From a virus: a stretch of 26,329 bases of DNA. The DNA is taken from IMG/VR virus record IMGVR_UViG_3300031658_003088, positions 1-26,329 of that record; one strand, 5' to 3'. How positions within the stretch are numbered: the first letter of the stretch is position 1; each line of letters begins with the position of its first letter. This document shows positions 1 to 18,182 of this stretch, one piece after another. The notes beneath the pieces were generated by a model. The model saw only the letters and a list, made by a program, of their open reading frames with translations. It was not told where the DNA came from and made no database searches. A program made the translations under genes and the position numbers.

Positions 1-180
1 GATAAATCACGATTCCGGAAGCCCGTGATACCAGGAGATCAAATACAATGTGAAGTAACTGTGGACTCTAAACATGGATTAGCTTGGAAATATACAGGCA
101 CAGCGTATGTTGAAGACAAGATAGTCGCTGACGCCCAATGGATGACTGTTGCAGTAAAGGTGTGTAATAATGGCGAATAG
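1..180 (+). CDS. FabZ-like 3-hydroxyacyl-ACP dehydratase, C-terminal part (partial at window start)
   Basis: The reading frame is open from base 1 to a TAG at 178-180, giving the last 59 residues of a protein that starts upstream. The segment RFRKPVIPGDQ, followed by alternating beta-strand sequence and a terminal strand containing ADAQWMTVAV, matches the end of the hotdog fold of FabZ, where R(F)xxPVxPGDQ is a family signature. FabZ dehydrates 3-hydroxyacyl-ACP to trans-2-enoyl-ACP in type II fatty acid synthesis. The catalytic His and Glu lie in the missing N-terminal half and cannot be checked. The next gene starts inside its last codons, so the two are translationally coupled. An ACP and a ketoacyl synthase occur 14 kb downstream. 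A MaoC-type or other hotdog hydratase is the main alternative. Confidence 0.75.
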   Translation, partial: DKSRFRKPVIPGDQIQCEVTVDSKHGLAWKYTGTAYVEDKIVADAQWMTVAVKVCNNGE

Positions 181-370
181 TGATGAAGTATGCCAGAATT
201 GTATTTGGTGGCTTGGAGATAATTCTGGCGATCAAGGCGAATGCCTTAATGATGAAGCCGATGATAGTAGGCTTATTATGGGGCGATTTGAAGACTGTAT
301 TAATATCTTAGTTCGAGAAGTAAATACTGATACAGAACCGCAGGAGTTAGACGCTCTTGACTTTAGTTAA
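170..370 (+). CDS. Small acidic cysteine-rich protein, unknown function
   Basis: This is a 66-residue acidic protein whose ATG lies 11 bases inside the end of the FabZ-like gene. Its N-terminal third has CQNCIWW followed by GDQGEC, so three cysteines are arranged as CxxC then C, which could bind a metal or an Fe-S cluster. There is no signal peptide or membrane segment. Short phage proteins with a CxxCxW start and a later GxC are common, but I cannot assign a function. The overlap with the upstream gene suggests it is translated together with the dehydratase, but this says nothing about a shared role. Confidence 0.6.
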   Translation: MANSDEVCQNCIWWLGDNSGDQGECLNDEADDSRLIMGRFEDCINILVREVNTDTEPQELDALDFS

Positions 371-1321: not shown

Positions 1322-2920
1322 ATGACTTTAGTTAAGAAAACCGTGGATGAGTGGCTTAATGACATCGATTATTCTGAGGACTATGATTATATCCCCAGCA
1401 AGTTTGCCCTCGAGTTTGTATCCTTTATTAAATTAGTTAATGGTGAAAAAGGCGAGGAAAATAAGACGCCAGTTATTCACCTTAAAATGATGGATAAAAT
1501 ACCAGGTAAAATACAGAACACTGCTAACATGTGTTCTCGTGGCCTGGCTAAGACTACTATATTTGCTGAATATCTGTTCCTGTATATAGCTGTTTACGGC
1601 GGTATACCTGGATTTGGTGATATAGATTACGCGTTATATGTTTCTGACAGCATCGAGAATGGTGTTAAAAAGATGCGCTTACGTATGGAGCGCCGTTGTG
1701 AGAATAGCCCATTCCTTCTTAAATATATCAAAGAGAGTCGGTTCACTGATATCAGGTGGTATTTTAAGAACGCTGAAGGCAAAGAGTTTGTAGTTACAGG
1801 CCACGGCGCCAAGACAGGCGTACGTGGTACAGTGGAGCTCAATACCCGGCCTCAGCTTGCTATATTGGATGATCTACTGGGAGATGAAGATGCTAAATCA
1901 GCCACAATTATCGAAAACGTGGAGAATACCGTGTATTCTGCCATTGATTACGCGCTTCATCCTCAGAAAAGAAAGGTTATCTGGTCAGGCACGCCCTTTA
2001 ATGCCAAGGATCCATTATACAAAGCAATTGAATCTGGAGTGTGGCACGTCAATGTCTATCCGGTCTGCGAGGCCTTTCCTTGTTCGAGAGAAGAATTTAA
2101 AGGTGCCTGGGACGATCGGTTTGATTATGACTATGTAAAGGCCCAGTATGATAAATCTAAAGGCGCTGGTAAGTTAGATTCCTTTAATCAGGAGCTTATG
2201 TTGCGTATTATGTCAGAGGAAGACAGGCTAATTCAAGACTCTGACTTAATTTGGTATAAGCGATCTAATGTACTGCAGCAGAAAGGTGCCTATAACTTCT
2301 ATATAACTACTGATTTTGCCACCAGTGACAAGCAACACGCTGATTACAGCGTGATTAATGTATGGGCTTTTAATAATAATGGTGATTGGATGTGGGTAGA
2401 TGGCTGGTATAAAAAAGCCCTGATGGATGAAGTAATGGATAACCTATTTAGATTAGCTCAGAAGTACCCAATACAAGAAGTAGGTATTGAGACTAACGGG
2501 CAGCAAAAAGGATTTATATCTTGGATCCAAAATGAGATGGGATACCGCAATAATTACTTTACTTTGTCTAGCGGTAAGACCGGCAAAGAACCTGGTATAC
2601 AATCATCTAGAGATAAAATGAGCAGATTCCAGCTTAATGCTGTTCCATTATTTAAGGCGCATAAAATATGGTTGCCTGAGGAATTAAAAGACAGTGAGGA
2701 ACTCGTAGAGTTGCTTTCTGAAATTAAATTAGCTACATTTAAGGGGTTCAAAAGCAAGAATGATGATGAGCTTGATACCGTAGCTCAACTAGCTGAATTG
2801 AATACCTGGCGGCCGAGTGAGTCTTTCGTAGAGGAAGAACAACTACATAAAGAAGATGAATCTGGCATGTGGGCCGAAGAGAATAGTAATAGAAAAGGCG
2901 ATTCCTCCTACTTCGTTTAA
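1322..2920 (+). CDS. terL: Terminase large subunit (packaging ATPase and nuclease)
   Basis: The 532-residue protein has the expected TerL order. The ATPase domain carries a Walker-A-like SRGLAKTT (72-79), a Walker B LAILDD (179-184) and the coupling segment WSGTPFN (221-227). The RNase H-fold nuclease domain shows acidic residues at D331 (ITTDFATSD), E390 (VGIETNG) and D485 (DELDT). TerL docks on the portal, pumps DNA into the prohead and cuts the concatemer. Length and motif spacing fit T7/P22-type short-tailed phage terminases. No small terminase subunit was recognised in the window. GGTAGG at 1310-1315 acts as ribosome binding site. The head-tail adaptor follows after 13 bases. Confidence 0.92.
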   Translation: MTLVKKTVDEWLNDIDYSEDYDYIPSKFALEFVSFIKLVNGEKGEENKTPVIHLKMMDKIPGKIQNTANMCSRGLAKTTIFAEYLFLYIAVYGGIPGFGDIDYALYVSDSIENGVKKMRLRMERRCENSPFLLKYIKESRFTDIRWYFKNAEGKEFVVTGHGAKTGVRGTVELNTRPQLAILDDLLGDEDAKSATIIENVENTVYSAIDYALHPQKRKVIWSGTPFNAKDPLYKAIESGVWHVNVYPVCEAFPCSREEFKGAWDDRFDYDYVKAQYDKSKGAGKLDSFNQELMLRIMSEEDRLIQDSDLIWYKRSNVLQQKGAYNFYITTDFATSDKQHADYSVINVWAFNNNGDWMWVDGWYKKALMDEVMDNLFRLAQKYPIQEVGIETNGQQKGFISWIQNEMGYRNNYFTLSSGKTGKEPGIQSSRDKMSRFQLNAVPLFKAHKIWLPEELKDSEELVELLSEIKLATFKGFKSKNDDELDTVAQLAELNTWRPSESFVEEEQLHKEDESGMWAEENSNRKGDSSYFV

Positions 2921-12040: not shown

Positions 12041-12535
12041 TTATGACTTTTCTTCTGATGACATTAACCGTTTTTCTAGGTTCCTCAACTCGTGCGTTAG
12101 TCGGTTCTGGACGTAGTCTTTTTCCAAAGCCGGTGACTTATCTGCTCGCGTCTGTACTGTGCGCCAGTATTGGATTAGGTCTCGCTCCATCTCCGTCAGC
12201 CATCCATCTACTAGCTGCTCTTTGGGCAGCACTGGCTGTGACTGTAAGCTTGTCAGCTGGCTATACGAATTGGGAGAAGACTGCTGTAATGCTGCCACGG
12301 CTGGCAATACCGAGCTTATTTGTTGTAATGCCGCTAATGTATACGATTGGAATTCATCTAAATTTTCTAATTTATGTGCTATTTTCGATAGGTGTCGCAC
12401 TACTATACCCACGCCGAGAAGCTGCTTATCAATATCTACTGGCTCTGAAGATTCCGTACTATTGGCAGTGGGTTGCCGATCCCGTTGATCCGGCAATAGT
12501 CCATCGGAAGTTACGTCTGTATACGCCATTTTCAT
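12041..12535 (-). CDS. Hydrophilic protein A-minus, antisense to a membrane-protein gene
   Basis: The 164-residue hydrophilic protein is the last gene of the minus-strand operon. It has no signal or membrane segment; the middle is Gln/Ser-rich and helical (LAALQQISSVLPAVAALQQS). The C-terminal third has QPVLPKE and ERDLIQYWRTVQTRADK. The minus-strand gene at 13154-13636 has QPELPKE and EVALIQHLRSEGLSADK at the same spacing, so the two look like paralogues. Purine-rich AGAAGAG precedes the start. The whole gene lies opposite the plus-strand frame 12043-12630, with codon position 1 opposite position 1; its TAA stop shares a base with that frame's ATG. Function is unknown. Confidence 0.6.
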   Translation of the reverse strand: MKMAYTDVTSDGLLPDQRDRQPTANSTESSEPVDIDKQLLGVGIVVRHLSKIAHKLENLDEFQSYTLAALQQISSVLPAVAALQQSSPNSYSQLTSLQSQPVLPKEQLVDGWLTEMERDLIQYWRTVQTRADKSPALEKDYVQNRLTHELRNLEKRLMSSEEKS

Positions 12536-12630
12536 TTTTCTCTTCTAGTGATTTTTGGGATAGCGCAAGGTTAGCTGAGTGTGCCTCAGGAGCTGCTCAT
12601 ATTGGGCTATTACCTATATTATTTATATAG
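12043..12630 (+). CDS. Polytopic membrane protein A-plus, end of the lysis operon
   Basis: This 195-residue protein follows the Rz1 stop by 10 bases with AGGA at 12031-12034. It is strongly hydrophobic, with about four membrane spans (residues 2-15, 30-48, 53-71 and 88-118). The motif FLGSSTRALVGSG near the N-terminus and PLMYTIG...LLYPRR in the second half also occur, diverged, in the plus-strand frame at 13123-13638 (LLGGSARSFVGTG, PLVYLFG, LFYPHR). It resembles small phage membrane proteins with an N-terminal span followed by a GSG/GR loop, of unknown role; a lysis-related role is possible from position. The last 60 residues lack a counterpart in the second copy. It overlaps the minus-strand gene A almost entirely. 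Confidence 0.65.
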   Translation: MTFLLMTLTVFLGSSTRALVGSGRSLFPKPVTYLLASVLCASIGLGLAPSPSAIHLLAALWAALAVTVSLSAGYTNWEKTAVMLPRLAIPSLFVVMPLMYTIGIHLNFLIYVLFSIGVALLYPRREAAYQYLLALKIPYYWQWVADPVDPAIVHRKLRLYTPFSFFSSSDFWDSARLAECASGAAHIGLLPILFI

Positions 12631-12799
12631 AATTACCGGTCCATACGTTAGCAGTTTTACAGGTTTTACACACCCGATTGCCTGAATGAGTTGAGGTAAA
12701 CACCTCAAAGCATGAAAGGCATTTTCTACGTAATGTCTTATATTGGTATGCTATTTCTGCATCAGGATCAGTAGGTCTTTTACTATATGGCATTGGCAT
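12623..12799 (-). CDS. Small zinc-ribbon-like protein (58 aa)
   Basis: Reading the minus strand from ATG at 12799 gives 58 residues. The sequence has KCLSCFEVF and RVCKTCKTANVW, i.e. two CxxC pairs 13 residues apart with a basic N-terminal half (KRPTDPDAEIAYQYKTLRRK). This is a typical short zinc ribbon of the type seen in phage proteins with 'RxCLxCxxxF...GNRxCxxC'. It may bind nucleic acid or RNA polymerase, but that is inference. AAGGAGA lies 12 bases before the ATG, a rather long spacing. It converges with the plus-strand frame ending at 12630, overlapping by eight bases. Confidence 0.7.
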   Translation of the reverse strand: MPMPYSKRPTDPDAEIAYQYKTLRRKCLSCFEVFTSTHSGNRVCKTCKTANVWTGNSI

Positions 12800-12803
12800 A
12801 ATG

Positions 12804-12986
12804 TTATTTAATCTCCTTACAAGTCGCCTTATCTTTAGGTAGTTTTAGCTTTTGATCTACCTTACGATAAAAGCTAATATTATAGTTATCCATTGCCTGA
12901 TGACATTCAAATATATCTTCGAATTGAATAGTTACTGCATATGGGAAATGAAGGCCAATTATGATGGTTAATATAGCAGGGGTCAT
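12804..12986 (-). CDS. Small secreted or membrane-anchored protein (60 aa)
   Basis: The 60-residue protein starts MTPAILTIIIGLHFPYAVTI, a hydrophobic N-terminal segment that could be a signal peptide or anchor, followed by a polar domain with two cysteines (FECHQAMDNYN, KATCKEIK) that could form a disulfide in the periplasm. AGGAG lies about 11 bases before the ATG on the minus strand. The start overlaps the stop of the previous minus-strand gene by four bases (ATGA), so it is part of the same operon. Function is unknown; an inhibitor or a superinfection-exclusion peptide would have this shape. Confidence 0.65.
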   Translation of the reverse strand: MTPAILTIIIGLHFPYAVTIQFEDIFECHQAMDNYNISFYRKVDQKLKLPKDKATCKEIK

Positions 12987-13141
12987 GATAAGGTTTCTCT
13001 CCTTTTTGTAATAACATACTCATCTATTTCTAAATGATCGTATGGGCAATTATCAATATTACAGGGCATTGTTTGGGGGTAAGGTTTATCTCGTCGTTTT
13101 AGCCGTATTGTGCATAGCTCGCATGTACTGCGTCTTGGCAT
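12983..13141 (-). CDS. Small cysteine-rich basic protein (52 aa)
   Basis: Reading the minus strand from ATG at 13141 gives 52 residues. There is a CELC pair near the N-terminus, then CNIDNC in the middle, between basic segments (RLKRRDKPYP, TKRRETLS), suggesting metal binding. AGGGA lies about nine bases upstream of the ATG, and the preceding minus-strand gene ends 12 bases before it. Its TGA overlaps the ATG of the next gene (ATGA). These operon features make it a likely real gene despite its size. The 5' part also lies opposite the start region of the plus-strand frame at 13123. Function is unknown. Confidence 0.6.
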   Translation of the reverse strand: MPRRSTCELCTIRLKRRDKPYPQTMPCNIDNCPYDHLEIDEYVITKRRETLS

Positions 13142-13638
13142 TTGTAATTTCCCTTATGTTTCTTTTAGGAGGGTCGGCCAGATCGTTTGTAGGTACAGGC
13201 TCCGGTCCACGTTGGCTAGGTAGGTGGTCAGTTTATCCGCCGATAGCCCTTCTGAGCGCAAGTGTTGGATTAACGCCACCTCTTGAGTGGACATATAACC
13301 TAGACCAATTACTCCTTCTTTGGGTAGCTCTGGTTGCTTCTCTAAATCTGGCGATGGGGTGGACGAAGTTACTCGATCAATATCTGCCTCAATGGCTCGG
13401 TTATGTTTGTCGATACGTTCTTGGTGATCCAAAGTGGGATCAAAAACATCAGTCTTATGCTTGGGATTGGGATCATGGTCGGTGGATGGCCGTAAGGTTA
13501 CTGCCTTCGCTAGTGTGTATAAGCCCTCTCGTATATCTATTCGGCCAATTATCTCAGGGGGCGATTTCATATATGGTTCTGTCTCTGATAGCTGGACTAT
13601 TCTATCCACATCGTCAAAGAGTGTTTGGTCAGTCATAG
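13123..13638 (+). CDS. Polytopic membrane protein B-plus, antisense to the minus operon
   Basis: This frame encodes 171 residues from ATG 13123; ATGs at 13042 and 13156 are also possible and none has a good ribosome binding site, which weakens the call. The protein is hydrophobic with about four spans. It is similar to the plus-strand protein at 12043-12630: LLGGSARSFVGTG, LSASVGL, LLLLWVALVASLNLAMGWT, LPSL.....PLVY and LFYPHR have counterparts in order. Several shared residues use quite different codons (R as AGA versus CGT, S as TCG versus AGC), a sign of selection on this protein frame. It covers the whole minus-strand gene 13154-13636. It may be expressed weakly, or be a decaying copy. 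Confidence 0.5.
   Translation: MYCVLAFVISLMFLLGGSARSFVGTGSGPRWLGRWSVYPPIALLSASVGLTPPLEWTYNLDQLLLLWVALVASLNLAMGWTKLLDQYLPQWLGYVCRYVLGDPKWDQKHQSYAWDWDHGRWMAVRLLPSLVCISPLVYLFGQLSQGAISYMVLSLIAGLFYPHRQRVFGQS
13154..13636 (-). CDS. Hydrophilic protein B-minus, paralogue of the 12041-12535 product
   Basis: This 160-residue protein starts MTDQTLFDDVDRIVQLSE and is soluble, acidic at the N-terminus with a charged, proline-containing middle (LRPSTDHDPNPKHKTDVFD). The C-terminal part has QPELPKE and ALIQHLRSEGLSADK, matching A-minus. AGGA sits seven bases before the ATG, and the previous minus-strand gene ends ten bases upstream, so its place in the operon is well supported. The gene is fully opposite the plus-strand membrane-protein frame, in the same 1-to-1 codon phase as the other pair. 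I do not recognise a domain. Function is unknown. Confidence 0.75.
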   Translation of the reverse strand: MTDQTLFDDVDRIVQLSETEPYMKSPPEIIGRIDIREGLYTLAKAVTLRPSTDHDPNPKHKTDVFDPTLDHQERIDKHNRAIEADIDRVTSSTPSPDLEKQPELPKEGVIGLGYMSTQEVALIQHLRSEGLSADKLTTYLANVDRSLYLQTIWPTLLKET

Positions 13639-14419: not shown

Positions 14420-14746
14420 ATGTCATCAACTGAATTTAATTTTACAGATGAAGAATTTCTAACCGTTATTAATTTAATGTGCAAAATGGACATGCCTGCA
14501 GGTAAAGAGTTTATTCCTGTGGCGCACATGGAAGAATTACTTAATGCCGAACGATTGGATAGCTTGGGCATTGTGGTGTTCTTTATTTGGATATCTGAGT
14601 TGTTTGGTATACCTGAGTCAGATGTAGCAGAATTTGCCCAAATAGAGGAGCTCACTCCTCGAGCAATAAAAGACTTTGTTATTGCTAATTGTACGCAAAC
14701 GTACGCTTACGCTGATGCAGAGGAGTTTGCTAAAAAATGTTTATAA
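14420..14746 (+). CDS. Acyl carrier protein-like protein
   Basis: This acidic 108-residue protein is predicted helical. Residues 45-68 read ERLDSLGIVVFFIWISELFGIP, matching the ACP core: a DSL motif whose Ser48 is the expected phosphopantetheine site, followed by helix II and the 'E.FGI' turn. EELTPRAIKDFVI is in place of helix IV. It is longer than a standard 75-80 residue ACP, with a 20-residue N-terminal lead and a C-terminal helix. Holo-ACP would carry acyl chains as thioesters; host holo-ACP synthase would be needed. AAGGTG precedes the ATG. The ketoacyl synthase gene starts ten bases before its end, a clear functional pair. Confidence 0.8.
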   Translation: MSSTEFNFTDEEFLTVINLMCKMDMPAGKEFIPVAHMEELLNAERLDSLGIVVFFIWISELFGIPESDVAEFAQIEELTPRAIKDFVIANCTQTYAYADAEEFAKKCL

Positions 14747-15747
14747 CCCACACAAACTCAGTATATTCTGAAGAGATAACTCTATTAGATCATTTACCAT
14801 GGCCCCAATATGTACACCAGGTAGCCAATGGTGGAGGCATGGTTGTCGAGCGCGGTATTAAGACAATGCCTGCTGAGCTCATTGATTATGTACTTAAAGG
14901 CAAGCATGGAGCCGCTGAAGGCACTGTCGAATTCATTCAAGAGCTATTAGCTACAAATGCCAGAGTTGGCCTTATACTGGCTGCAGGTGGCACCAGCTGG
15001 ACAGGGTACACCTCAAATATTCCCCGAACAGACAAATACCCAATATGTAAGGTTCCTCCTATGGGCGCCACACAAGTGTTTGCTGGGTATCTTGCTAACC
15101 GGTTAGGTTCTTTTGAATACATATCCACGGACTGCACCAGCTGCATTAGTGGGCACTCCGCCTGGTATACAGCCAATAATATGCTTAAATTAGGCCTCTT
15201 AGATGCCATGGTAGTCATCTCCTCAGACAATGGGCTTTCTGAAGAATACTTAGCAATATTTGGTGAACACGGTTTATCTAAATCAGTAGAAGAAGAAGAT
15301 ACTGATATAGTTAAATTCCGAGTAGGCCATGGGTGTAACATAACTATATTTGAAGGCGTTAACCACTTAGCAGCAGTTAAGCGTGACCCAATAGCAATAG
15401 TAACTGATATGCATTTAGCAGCTGAAACGCATGTTAACCCTTTAGGAATATCAGATACTGGTGCCGGGTATGAGAAGGTGATTACTGCTGTAGATACCAC
15501 CGGCATTGACTTTGTTAAGACTCACAGTACATTCTCTGAGGATAATAAAGTGGAAGAAAAGTTAGTTAAAGCTGCCTTTGGTGATATTAGATTAGTTAAT
15601 TATAAACTACGTATTGGCCATACCATGGGGTCTTCTACTGCGATAGAGACTGCTTTAGCTATCCAAGAAGAACAAGGTAAGTTCCTTAGTTTAGGTGCAG
15701 GCATGGGTAATGTATTTTCATCGGCCGTAGTGGAGATTATTAAATGA
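14737..15747 (+). CDS. Compact beta-ketoacyl-ACP synthase (KAS I/II-like thiolase fold)
   Basis: The 336-residue protein is shorter than FabB/FabF (about 410). YISTDCTSCISGHSAWY (128-144) matches the nucleophile region, with C133 at the place of the KAS cysteine. FRVGHGCNITIFEGVNHLAA matches the 'GEGA..LVLE...HA' region. VKTHSTFSEDN (260-270) matches the 'HGTSTP.ND' loop with H263. NYKLRIGHTMGSSTAIE (288-304) matches 'K...GH..GA.G..E' with K290 and H295. So a Cys-His-His triad appears complete. KAS enzymes condense malonyl-ACP with an acyl chain. AGGAG at 14721-14725 lies in the ACP gene. Substrate is unknown; the C-terminal glycine loop is GAGMGN instead of FGFGGTN. Confidence 0.82.
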   Translation: MFITHTNSVYSEEITLLDHLPWPQYVHQVANGGGMVVERGIKTMPAELIDYVLKGKHGAAEGTVEFIQELLATNARVGLILAAGGTSWTGYTSNIPRTDKYPICKVPPMGATQVFAGYLANRLGSFEYISTDCTSCISGHSAWYTANNMLKLGLLDAMVVISSDNGLSEEYLAIFGEHGLSKSVEEEDTDIVKFRVGHGCNITIFEGVNHLAAVKRDPIAIVTDMHLAAETHVNPLGISDTGAGYEKVITAVDTTGIDFVKTHSTFSEDNKVEEKLVKAAFGDIRLVNYKLRIGHTMGSSTAIETALAIQEEQGKFLSLGAGMGNVFSSAVVEIIK

Positions 15748-16091
15748 TATTCAAACACTGTAGTTTAATCCAAGAAGGGGGATCAGTCCTATTTTATAGA
15801 TTTAACCGCCCTCTTAATGGATATATGATAGCCGGGCTATTCATAGCTCCTAATATTGAGGATAAGTTATGCTTTGCTAAAATATGGAAATACTTTGTAT
15901 CTGAAGTAGTTAGAGGAGATGACATATATTGCTCAGTAGCCCTCGGGGTAGAGAATCCTATGTTTGATAGTTACTTAGAATTCTATAAGGAAATTGATGG
16001 TCTTAAAATTTATAAGGTTGATAATTTTCTTAAAGATCAATATAGTTCGTACACTCACCATAAAGTAACGCATGGCCTTAGGCGGGAATAA
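15744..16091 (+). CDS. Unknown protein of the ACP-synthase operon
   Basis: This 115-residue protein begins at an ATG overlapping the synthase stop by four bases, with GGAG at 15732-15735, and ends one base before the portal ATG. The N-terminal part alternates strands (GGSVLFYRFNRPLNGYMIAGLF), then helix-like CFAKIWKYFVSEVVRGDD and strand IYCSVALGV. NPMFDSYLEFYKEIDGLKIY follows and the tail is basic. The alpha/beta pattern with 'N.M...YL.FYK..G' at the end is reminiscent of a small GNAT-type acyltransferase, which would fit the acyl context, but no acyl-CoA loop (RxxGxG) is visible. I leave the function open. Confidence 0.65.
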   Translation: MIFKHCSLIQEGGSVLFYRFNRPLNGYMIAGLFIAPNIEDKLCFAKIWKYFVSEVVRGDDIYCSVALGVENPMFDSYLEFYKEIDGLKIYKVDNFLKDQYSSYTHHKVTHGLRRE

Positions 16092-18182
16092 ATGAGCGAT
16101 CTTATTAAAGATGATGGTGGAGATACCACTGAAATTGATGTCACTACATTAGTGGATTGGGAAAATCCCCCTAAGCTAGCTGACTTAAAGCATGATTTAG
16201 AGTCTGCTCAGTCAGCCCATAAAGCTCACGTTATGGAAGTTGACGCCTGGCTTGCTGTTCTTAAGGGCGAGCAAATCATTAACTCTAAGACCGGTAGATC
16301 TAAACTTGTACCTAAATTGGTACGTAAGCAGGCAGAATGGCGTTATGCTGCGCTATCAGAACCTTTCTTATCTACCGATGACCTATTTAACACATCCCCC
16401 TCTACATTCGAAGATAAAGAAACAGCAGAACAAAATGGTATGCTGTTAAATTATCAGCTTAACTGTCGTATTGATAAAGTGGACTTTGTTGATACTTATG
16501 TTCGCACGGCTGTAGATGAAGGCACTGTAGTTGTTCGTGTTGGTTGGGAGTTCGAAGAAGCTAAGCGTAAAGTATACACCCCTGTTATGGAACCTAGAAT
16601 GGTGCCTGGCCCTGATGGCCAGCCCCAAATGGACCCAGAAACTGGCGTACCTCTTATGGAGGAGGTTAAGGTTGGTGAGACATCTGCAATGAAGATGGTC
16701 ACTATTAAGAATCAACCTGAATTAACCGTATGTGACTATAACAATTTAGTGTTAGATCCCACTTGCCAGGGAGACATAGATAAAGCTGGTTTTGGTGTTT
16801 ATAGTTTTGAGACCTCGTTATCCGAGCTCAAAAAAGATGGCCGGTATAAGAATTTAGATGATGTTAACTTTGAGACTGCTTCTGTATTAGCTGAGCCAGA
16901 TCATAAGATTAAATCTGATGACACTGCCTTCACCTTTCAAGATAAAGCCCGTAAAAAAGTAGTTGCCCGGGAATACTGGGGGTCATGGGATATCCATGAT
17001 ACTGGCGAAGTAGTACCCTTTGTGGCTGCCTGGATAGGCAGCACTTTAATTAGATTAGAAGAAAACCCATATCCTGATAAGAAACTTCCATTTGTGTTAG
17101 TTCAGTACTTACCTCGCCGTAAGAATGTGTATGGTGAGCCTGACGCTGAGCTTATTGAAGACAATCAAAAGATTGTAGGAGCTGTAACCCGTGGTATCAT
17201 TGATATTATTGGACGTAGTGCCAATGGCCAACAAGGTATCCGGAAGGATGCTTTGGATGTTACTAACGCCCGTAAGTTTGATCGGGGTGATGATTATAAA
17301 TTTAATGCTCAGGTAGATCCTAAGCAGGCCTTCCACATGGAAGTGTACCCCGAGATTCCTAGATCAGCTCTCGAAGTACTAGATATGCAAAATAATGACG
17401 CTGAGGCCCTCACAGGCGTTAAGGCGTTCACTAATGGCATTTCTGGCCAAGCCTTAGGAACTACGGCTACTGGTATACGCTCTGCTCTAGACGCTACCTC
17501 TAAGCGTGAGCTAGGCATACTTCGTCGGCTATCAAATGGGTTTAATAAGATTGGCCGTAAGATTATCTCTATGAATTCTGAATTCTTAGATGAAAAAGAA
17601 ATTATTCGTATTACCAATGAAGAGCTTATAGCTATCGATCGTAATGATCTTGGTGGCAAATATGATATTAAACTTAACATTTCTACTGCTGAAGCAGATG
17701 AGCAGAAAGCCAGTGAATTAGCATTCATGTTGCAAACCACTGGTAATAGTATGCCTATAGAAGTTACCCAGATGATCCTATCTGACATTGCTAAGTTACG
17801 TAAGATGCCTGAGTTAGCTAAGCGTATGGCAGAGTTTAAGCCTGAACCTGATCCGTTAGCCCAGAAGAAAGCTGAACTTGAAATAGCATTGTTAGAAGCA
17901 CAAGTGTTTAATGAACAAGCTAAAGGTGAAGAAAACAAGGTGGATGTTGGCCTCAAGACAGCTAAGACAGCTACTGAAGAGGCTAAGACACGCAATATGA
18001 ATAGCGATTCTGATGGTAAGGATCTTGACTTTGTTGAGAAAGAATCTGGTGTTGCTAATGCTCGAGAAACTGAAGCTAATAATAACAAACACGCCCAAGC
18101 CATGGAAGGTAAAGAGCACGATAGGTTAAGTAATCTTGACAGCCAAGCTCTTACCGAGTTAAATAAACCTAACAAAACTTAA
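16092..18182 (+). CDS. Portal protein (head-tail connector)
   Basis: The 696-residue protein is of P22/N4-like portal size. The N-terminal region has KGEQIINSKTGRSKLVPKLV, WRYAALSEPFLSTDDLF and YQLNCRIDKVDFVDTYVRTA; the centre has AREYWGSWD, LPFVLVQYLPRRKNVYGEPD and LIEDNQKIVGAVTRGIIDII. Near residues 455-480 is TATGIRSALDATSKRELGIL, a helical segment conserved in large short-tailed-phage portals. The C-terminal 130 residues are charged coiled coil (LEIALLEAQVFNEQAKGEEN), the region that forms the barrel in related portals. The dodecameric ring seats terminase and DNA. The ATG follows the previous TAA directly; AGGCGGG is the ribosome binding site. Confidence 0.88.
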   Translation: MSDLIKDDGGDTTEIDVTTLVDWENPPKLADLKHDLESAQSAHKAHVMEVDAWLAVLKGEQIINSKTGRSKLVPKLVRKQAEWRYAALSEPFLSTDDLFNTSPSTFEDKETAEQNGMLLNYQLNCRIDKVDFVDTYVRTAVDEGTVVVRVGWEFEEAKRKVYTPVMEPRMVPGPDGQPQMDPETGVPLMEEVKVGETSAMKMVTIKNQPELTVCDYNNLVLDPTCQGDIDKAGFGVYSFETSLSELKKDGRYKNLDDVNFETASVLAEPDHKIKSDDTAFTFQDKARKKVVAREYWGSWDIHDTGEVVPFVAAWIGSTLIRLEENPYPDKKLPFVLVQYLPRRKNVYGEPDAELIEDNQKIVGAVTRGIIDIIGRSANGQQGIRKDALDVTNARKFDRGDDYKFNAQVDPKQAFHMEVYPEIPRSALEVLDMQNNDAEALTGVKAFTNGISGQALGTTATGIRSALDATSKRELGILRRLSNGFNKIGRKIISMNSEFLDEKEIIRITNEELIAIDRNDLGGKYDIKLNISTAEADEQKASELAFMLQTTGNSMPIEVTQMILSDIAKLRKMPELAKRMAEFKPEPDPLAQKKAELEIALLEAQVFNEQAKGEENKVDVGLKTAKTATEEAKTRNMNSDSDGKDLDFVEKESGVANARETEANNNKHAQAMEGKEHDRLSNLDSQALTELNKPNKT

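Follow-up and report, generated by a model that had tools for sequence, protein, structure and literature searches.

Could a lytic phage itself carry out some of the steps of fatty acid synthesis, and if so, would the product serve the membrane, the balance of lipopolysaccharide, or the acyl tagging of a molecule of the virion or the host? This testable question is raised by the first 180 bases of a virus record that is complete at 26,329 bases, all of which was analyzed and is called the window here. A sequence-only reading had proposed that the end of a FabZ-like hotdog protein opens the window, 14 kb from acyl carrier protein (ACP) and synthase genes. On the plus strand, bases 1 to 177 are free of stops in frame 1 and encode 59 residues starting DKSRFRKPVIPGDQ, followed by a stop codon at 178 to 180. 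Residues 1 to 45 of this stub aligned with positions 89 to 137 of the 138-position Pfam FabA-like family PF07977 (E 4.5e-5), and the score of 23.5 bits was barely above the curated cut-off of 23 and came from the C-terminal third only. When phmmer was used to compare the stub with PDB chains, 20 FabZ or FabZ-like chains matched at E ≤ 0.0043 (best, 1.5e-7), and every alignment fell on the C-terminal end of the chain. The contig end cuts off the remaining N-terminal part of about 95 residues, which includes the active site. A PF07977 search across the entire window record did not detect the stub, and a scan for close relatives with the 59 residues as the query gave no matches. The sole contig matching at 100%, L001, spans the synthase to the capsid and does not contain the 5′ part of FabZ.

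Relatives came instead from a scan of viral contigs with the large terminase subunit gene, terL (1322 to 2920, plus strand; phrog_38, E 1.2e-92), which serves as the landmark of the FabZ site. It returned 65 loci. The same FabZ C terminus was present upstream of terL in 24 of these 65 independently fetched loci; therefore, the stub is not a chance match. Loci counted as informative if FabZ was present or if the sequence extended 900 bases or more ahead of terL. Of 57 such loci, 25 had FabZ shortly before terL and 32 lacked it; the other 8 loci were too short. A separate FabZ scan produced 42 loci. Between FabZ and terL in the window is a 66-residue, cysteine-containing open reading frame (ORF; 170 to 370, plus strand) that has 11 bases in common with the end of FabZ, stop codon included, and it also accompanies FabZ or terL in some relatives (7 of 65 terL loci by tblastn, plus further loci, including more with the order FabZ, 66-residue ORF, terL from the FabZ scan). 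In one relative without FabZ (G050), the ORF that elsewhere precedes FabZ abuts terL. FabZ is thus facultative and, when present, inserted at a constant position.

The location of the stub exactly at a contig end could mean that bacterial DNA was misassembled onto the phage. This would also fit the 24 records in an isolate phage collection that matched phage FabZ, none of which is N4-like by name and all of which we judged to be host DNA from their names, lengths, and missing annotation. However, the FabZ-(66-residue ORF)-terL order recurs in tens of contigs and is internal in a 74.7-kb relative. This synteny refutes contamination or misassembly, which we consider barely credible. Translation, PF07977, the FabZ chains in PDB, and recurrence upstream of terL together confirm by sequence that bases 1 to 180 are the 3′ end of a genuine FabZ-type 3-hydroxyacyl-ACP dehydratase gene (its last 59 codons and stop) cut by the contig end. 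The proposed distance also held, with the ACP gene starting at 14,420. Separately, some phage-labeled records with fabZ resemble host chromosome fragments (for example, OR846916, OR846615, PQ520154, and MT837229).

The portal protein gene (16092 to 18182, plus strand; phrog_1216, E 4.8e-224), which is the landmark of the ACP-synthase site, matched 484 phage records. N4-like phages were best, with 54% identity to FSL SP-058. The window terL matched 478 phage records and was 59% identical to that of SABI. Judged by its related portal and terminase sequences, the window phage is an uncultured N4-like bacteriophage (Schitoviridae), and the best-matching isolates for both proteins infect Gammaproteobacteria. 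One relative, G088, is near complete at 74,681 bases, with similar ORFs at both ends and FabZ at its internal position. It also carries a 4,208-residue ORF that would fit the giant virion RNA polymerase by size alone.

The relatives supplied the part of FabZ that the window does not. PF07977 scored 72 to 115 bits in 24 of 45 records. The sequence-only reading had called for a check of the FabZ active-site His and Glu, and both were present in all 24 distinct full-length copies from relatives, which defeats the counter-case that the reading had named, a non-FabZ hotdog protein lacking catalytic residues. One additional copy, on the minus strand of record G104 (L374:2007-2435), carries Asp where the other copies have the catalytic Glu, and the adjacent terL is split into two frames. 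Asp is the residue that FabA uses at this position. We built a tree from 31 viral sequences, 80 cellular sequences, and one Salmonella FabZ. In it, 23 FabZ proteins of N4-like phages formed a single clade (support 100/99) relative to the cellular and Salmonella proteins. Two N4-like sequences were on long branches, L060 within the phage clade and L049 outside it with weak support. Seven viral-contig rows from outside the N4-like set (L197, L198 to L202, and L204) branched with cellular FabZ; these were excluded from the active-site count, and L203 was collapsed as a duplicate. The cellular rows had been chosen by similarity to phage FabZ, and therefore the tree does not name a donor. Pairwise dN/dS had a median of 0.17 in one set of 45 pairs and of 0.32 in another, in which 53 of the 66 pairs could be used; these values are low enough to indicate purifying selection on phage FabZ. 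The phage proteins share with bacterial FabZ of the lpxD-fabZ-lpxA type the FabA-like domain, a length of about 145 to 160 residues, and the GHFP...PGVLILE motifs with the active His and Glu (the L070 copy is 37% identical to Salmonella FabZ). Unlike the bacterial genes, they form their own clade, have no lpx neighbors, and are placed before terL.

At the other site, three plus-strand genes, each overlapping the next, lead straight into the portal gene. They are predicted to encode an ACP-like protein of 108 residues (14420 to 14746; phrog_28189, E 3.3e-11), a FabF-like beta-ketoacyl-ACP synthase of 336 residues (14737 to 15747; phrog_35856, E 4.8e-111) whose gene overlaps the ACP gene by 10 bases, and a small protein that we call ORF115 (15744 to 16091; phrog_28689, E 1.8e-16), which overlaps the synthase gene by 4 bases. 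PHROGs lists all three families as of unknown function. The window ACP had no Pfam match, and its profile found a peptidyl carrier protein as the best PDB match (E 0.009). However diverged it may be, Asp47 and Ser48 of its D-S-L motif were invariant in 58 of 58 relatives, with Leu or Met next. These were 58 of 64 loci, because the gene was too short or absent in L001, L134, L145, L147, L148, and L151. Its structural model has helices like those of an ACP, with Ser48 opening a predicted helix (48 to 62), and the eight best Foldseek matches were all ACPs, although weakly scored (best E 0.53). The synthase sequence alone scored 16.2 in Pfam against a cut-off of 20.8, which a relative in phage ctpbd312 exceeded, and the alignment profile matched FabF structures at E 1.7e-18. 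Its Cys136-His263-His295 triad and Lys290 were retained in 62 of 62 relatives (62 of 64 loci, with the partial L001 and L180 dropped). A scan for promoters and terminators around the ACP and synthase genes found no more sites than in shuffled sequence.

ORF115 was modeled with a pLDDT of 79. GNAT chains filled its Foldseek and VIA lists, with a Z score of 7.1 at best, and Foldseek gave no PDB match at E ≤ 0.001. Members of the GNAT family usually have an acyl-CoA pyrophosphate motif, [QR]xxGx[GA]. It was absent from all 36 ORF115 sequences (the window copy and 35 relatives), and therefore we describe the protein as having a predicted GNAT-like fold rather than as a GNAT acetyltransferase.

A scan of viral contigs with a profile of the synthase found 64 loci, of which 36 belong to the N4-like clade and the other 28 to a second phage group typified by MW202545 (ctpbd312). 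In N4-like loci L118 to L152, the synthase was followed by ORF115 and then the portal gene in 35 of 35, and ACP preceded it in 33; the remaining two loci start inside the synthase. ACP also preceded the synthase in all 28 second-group loci. Many of these (L153 to L180) have a conserved protein of about 148 residues after the pair (e.g., L153:7631-8098), for which neither Pfam nor PHROG gave a match in the scanned members; L167, L170, and L172 have another gene in its place. This protein looked like ORF115 by eye, but profile comparison revealed no similarity, and we rejected the idea that they are kin.

The portal site is variable. An alignment-based scan found 80 portal loci (a single-sequence scan had found only 6), of which 47 had the synthase, 18 with at least 900 bases upstream did not, and 15 were too short. 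By tblastn, the 18 synthase-less loci comprised 8 with ACP and ORF115 (L319, L325, L326, L327, L341, L342, L344, and L346), 2 with ORF115 and no detected ACP (L360 and L367), and 8 with neither, some of which may hold an ACP because tblastn missed a diverged one in L353. We read six of the ACP-ORF115 loci gene by gene, and in these the ACP and ORF115 genes either adjoin or share bases. In L349 and L353, the synthase is nearer to the second-group type and ORF115 had no match, and reading L353 gene by gene revealed an ACP-like ORF upstream of its synthase.

We then asked whether FabZ and the synthase occur together. Thirteen records, related to one another, display both the terL and portal sites. 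FabZ and the synthase were both present in 7 (the window, G006, G010, G014, G016, G088, and G104), and ACP was also present in all 7. Two records (G050 and G108) had the synthase without FabZ, or 2 of the 9 with a synthase. Four distant members (G033, G034, G038, and G109) had neither. None of the 13 had FabZ without the synthase, an association with a one-sided Fisher p of 0.021 when relatedness is ignored. FabZ was not found in any of 40 other synthase-bearing records from both groups that were searched whole, and most of the N4-like ones end before terL. The proposal that these genes form a dispersed pathway rather than one stray gene is therefore upheld in part. The 7-of-7 association agrees with it, whereas the gap of about 12 to 18 kb between FabZ and the ACP-synthase genes, the synthase without FabZ in G050 and G108, and the 28 second-group loci with ACP and synthase do not. 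At the sequence level, "one pathway" describes an association only.

The phage genes do not amount to a full cycle. PF13561 (FabG and related short-chain dehydrogenases/reductases [SDRs], including the FabI type), PF00698 (FabD), and PF01648 (AcpS) were each absent from all 24 records searched, including the 74.7-kb G088, and PF13561 was absent from the window. Of 14 control genomes, 13, 10, and 10, respectively, were positive. When 83 of the 105 predicted ORFs of G088 were searched with Pfam, FabA was the sole fatty acid family found. Of the two sources that the earlier reading had named for the missing parts, the host and DNA outside the window, this favors the host, and we read the phage set, from its sequence, as an incomplete type II fatty acid synthesis (FAS-II) system completed by the host. 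The same reading had suggested that products could be unsaturated or 3-hydroxy chains if enoyl reductase were lacking. We rejected this as unsupported because bacterial hosts have their own enoyl reductase and FabZ, unlike FabA, normally does not isomerize.

On balance, we consider it probable that these phages keep a working FabZ of bacterial origin in an accessory slot beside terL and add it, with other phage parts, to the host FAS-II cycle. An N4-like lineage would have acquired FabZ from bacteria and retained it directly upstream of terL. During infection, FabZ would dehydrate 3-hydroxyacyl-ACP to trans-2-enoyl-ACP, the phage ACP would be made holo by host AcpS, and the FabF-like synthase would condense acyl chains with malonyl-ACP. 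Host FabD, FabG, and FabI would supply the remaining steps. In this way the phages probably insert their own parts into host lipid assembly. The gene family, catalytic residues kept in relatives, purifying selection, gene order, and co-occurrence are established; from them we infer that the enzymes are active and work with the phage ACP, that their products enter host lipids, and when the genes are expressed. In the available part of one study, adding FabZ raised E. coli fatty acid synthase activity about 6-fold in vitro and excess FabF was inhibitory (PMC3896788), and the available part of another describes competition between FabZ and LpxA for one substrate in E. coli (PMC12444477). Therefore, the level of dehydratase is likely to matter. 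Several observations count against the host FAS-II reading: FabZ lies apart from ACP and the synthase, it is missing from 32 of 57 terL loci, the synthase occurs without it (G050, G108, and the second group), 8 of 80 portal loci have ACP and ORF115 but no synthase, and one FabZ copy is of the Asp type.

The separate and facultative position of FabZ might instead mean that it acts alone in remodeling the envelope. By dehydrating 3-hydroxymyristoyl-ACP it would deprive LpxA, and thus lipid A synthesis, of substrate and, late in infection, tilt the cell toward phospholipid at the expense of lipopolysaccharide, while ACP and the synthase served otherwise. The FabZ-LpxA competition in E. coli fits this idea. 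So does the best-matching cellular FabZ, which is in a bamA-ompH-lpxD-fabZ-lpxA cluster (gene names are from ORF reading). However, that neighborhood says little about phage function, being the usual home of fabZ in Gram-negative bacteria, and FabZ was never without the synthase in records with both sites (7 of 7). We regard this as unlikely. A private acyl chain is a somewhat more doubtful alternative. Here ACP, the synthase, and FabZ would make a chain that ORF115 moves from acyl-ACP to an amine on a virion protein, host protein, or small molecule, with FabZ only improving the supply. The constancy of ORF115 after the synthase (35 of 35 loci; in the window its start codon overlaps the synthase stop codon), its persistence with ACP in the 8 portal loci without the synthase, and a GNAT-like fold without the CoA pyrophosphate motif, which would suit an ACP-bound donor, all point this way. 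However, the structural matches score poorly (PDB gave nothing at E ≤ 0.001, and Z was near 7) and the arrangement may be a common one. In addition, no catalytic residue was identified in ORF115, two loci (L360 and L367) have it without a detected ACP, and the second-group gene after the synthase has no profile similarity to it.

The presence sets form a nested series, from ORF115 to ORF115 with ACP, then with the synthase, and then with FabZ at the terL site. It is conceivable, if rather improbable, that the pathway was built backwards from an enzyme using acyl-ACP, gaining the donor, elongation, and dehydration stepwise, for a phage-specific acyl group in virion production. ORF115 could also be a noncatalytic virion or assembly protein of GNAT-like fold; ACP and the synthase would then be little-used passengers in the late operon, and FabZ an unrelated stray. 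All of the genes are in or beside structural genes, and among the 50 best viral fold matches of ORF115, two carry virion protein annotations (internal virion protein A and a minor capsid protein). However, passengers would not be expected to keep full catalytic sets across large divergence, as the synthase, ACP, and FabZ do, nor to have the low dN/dS of FabZ, and we find this very unlikely. In this phage clade, three steps of a single cycle are represented by proteins that are divergent yet conserved, each encoded at a constant position amid the structural genes.

Fatty acid genes in phages have already been published. They have been listed for single steps of lipid synthesis, in most cases as metabolic genes that look like an operon of the host. 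Three roseobacter prophages carry fabG-acpP-fabF in the host operon order, with no fabZ reported in the part of the paper available (PMC8224337). They resemble the window phage in having phage-borne ACP and FabF. In contrast, as far as that part describes them, the window ACP and synthase are divergent (without a Pfam call), FabZ is present, FabG was not found, and the phage is N4-like. The Alteromonas schitovirus R22Y belongs to the same family and also bears an ACP (gp30), reported as an auxiliary metabolic gene in the available portion of its description (PMC11705849). Our ACP, synthase, ORF115, and FabZ profiles had no match in its genome at E ≤ 1; therefore, its ACP differs from that of the window. 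Reads for fabG, fabF, and fabZ occur in 1,000-m marine viromes (PMC10653327), and FabZ and FabF are likewise viral there; the reads are assigned to functions, and the available part of that report does not give genome context. ACP is also described in a Vibrio phage in the accessible part of another report (PMC10152775). In Caudoviricetes ctpbd312 from Manatee Spring (MW202545), an ACP gene immediately precedes a synthase gene from the same family, but the annotated head and tail genes and the gene after the synthase are different, and the whole record contains no FabZ. In a literature survey made mostly at listing level, we found no report of FabZ with the ACP-synthase-ORF115 cassette in N4-like phages. 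What appears to be new is this set of genes and its layout.

Other features of these genomes were seen along the way. In the window, two long plus-strand ORFs at 12041 to 13638 overlap minus-strand ORFs of 160 to 164 residues. In G088, adjacent ORFs after the tail genes (L206:12516-13640 and L206:13640-15409) have RCC1-repeat and sulfotransferase family matches, one ORF matches a Tad2-like anti-Thoeris domain (PF11195, E 3.5e-10), and another matches Thy1 thymidylate synthase (PF02511).
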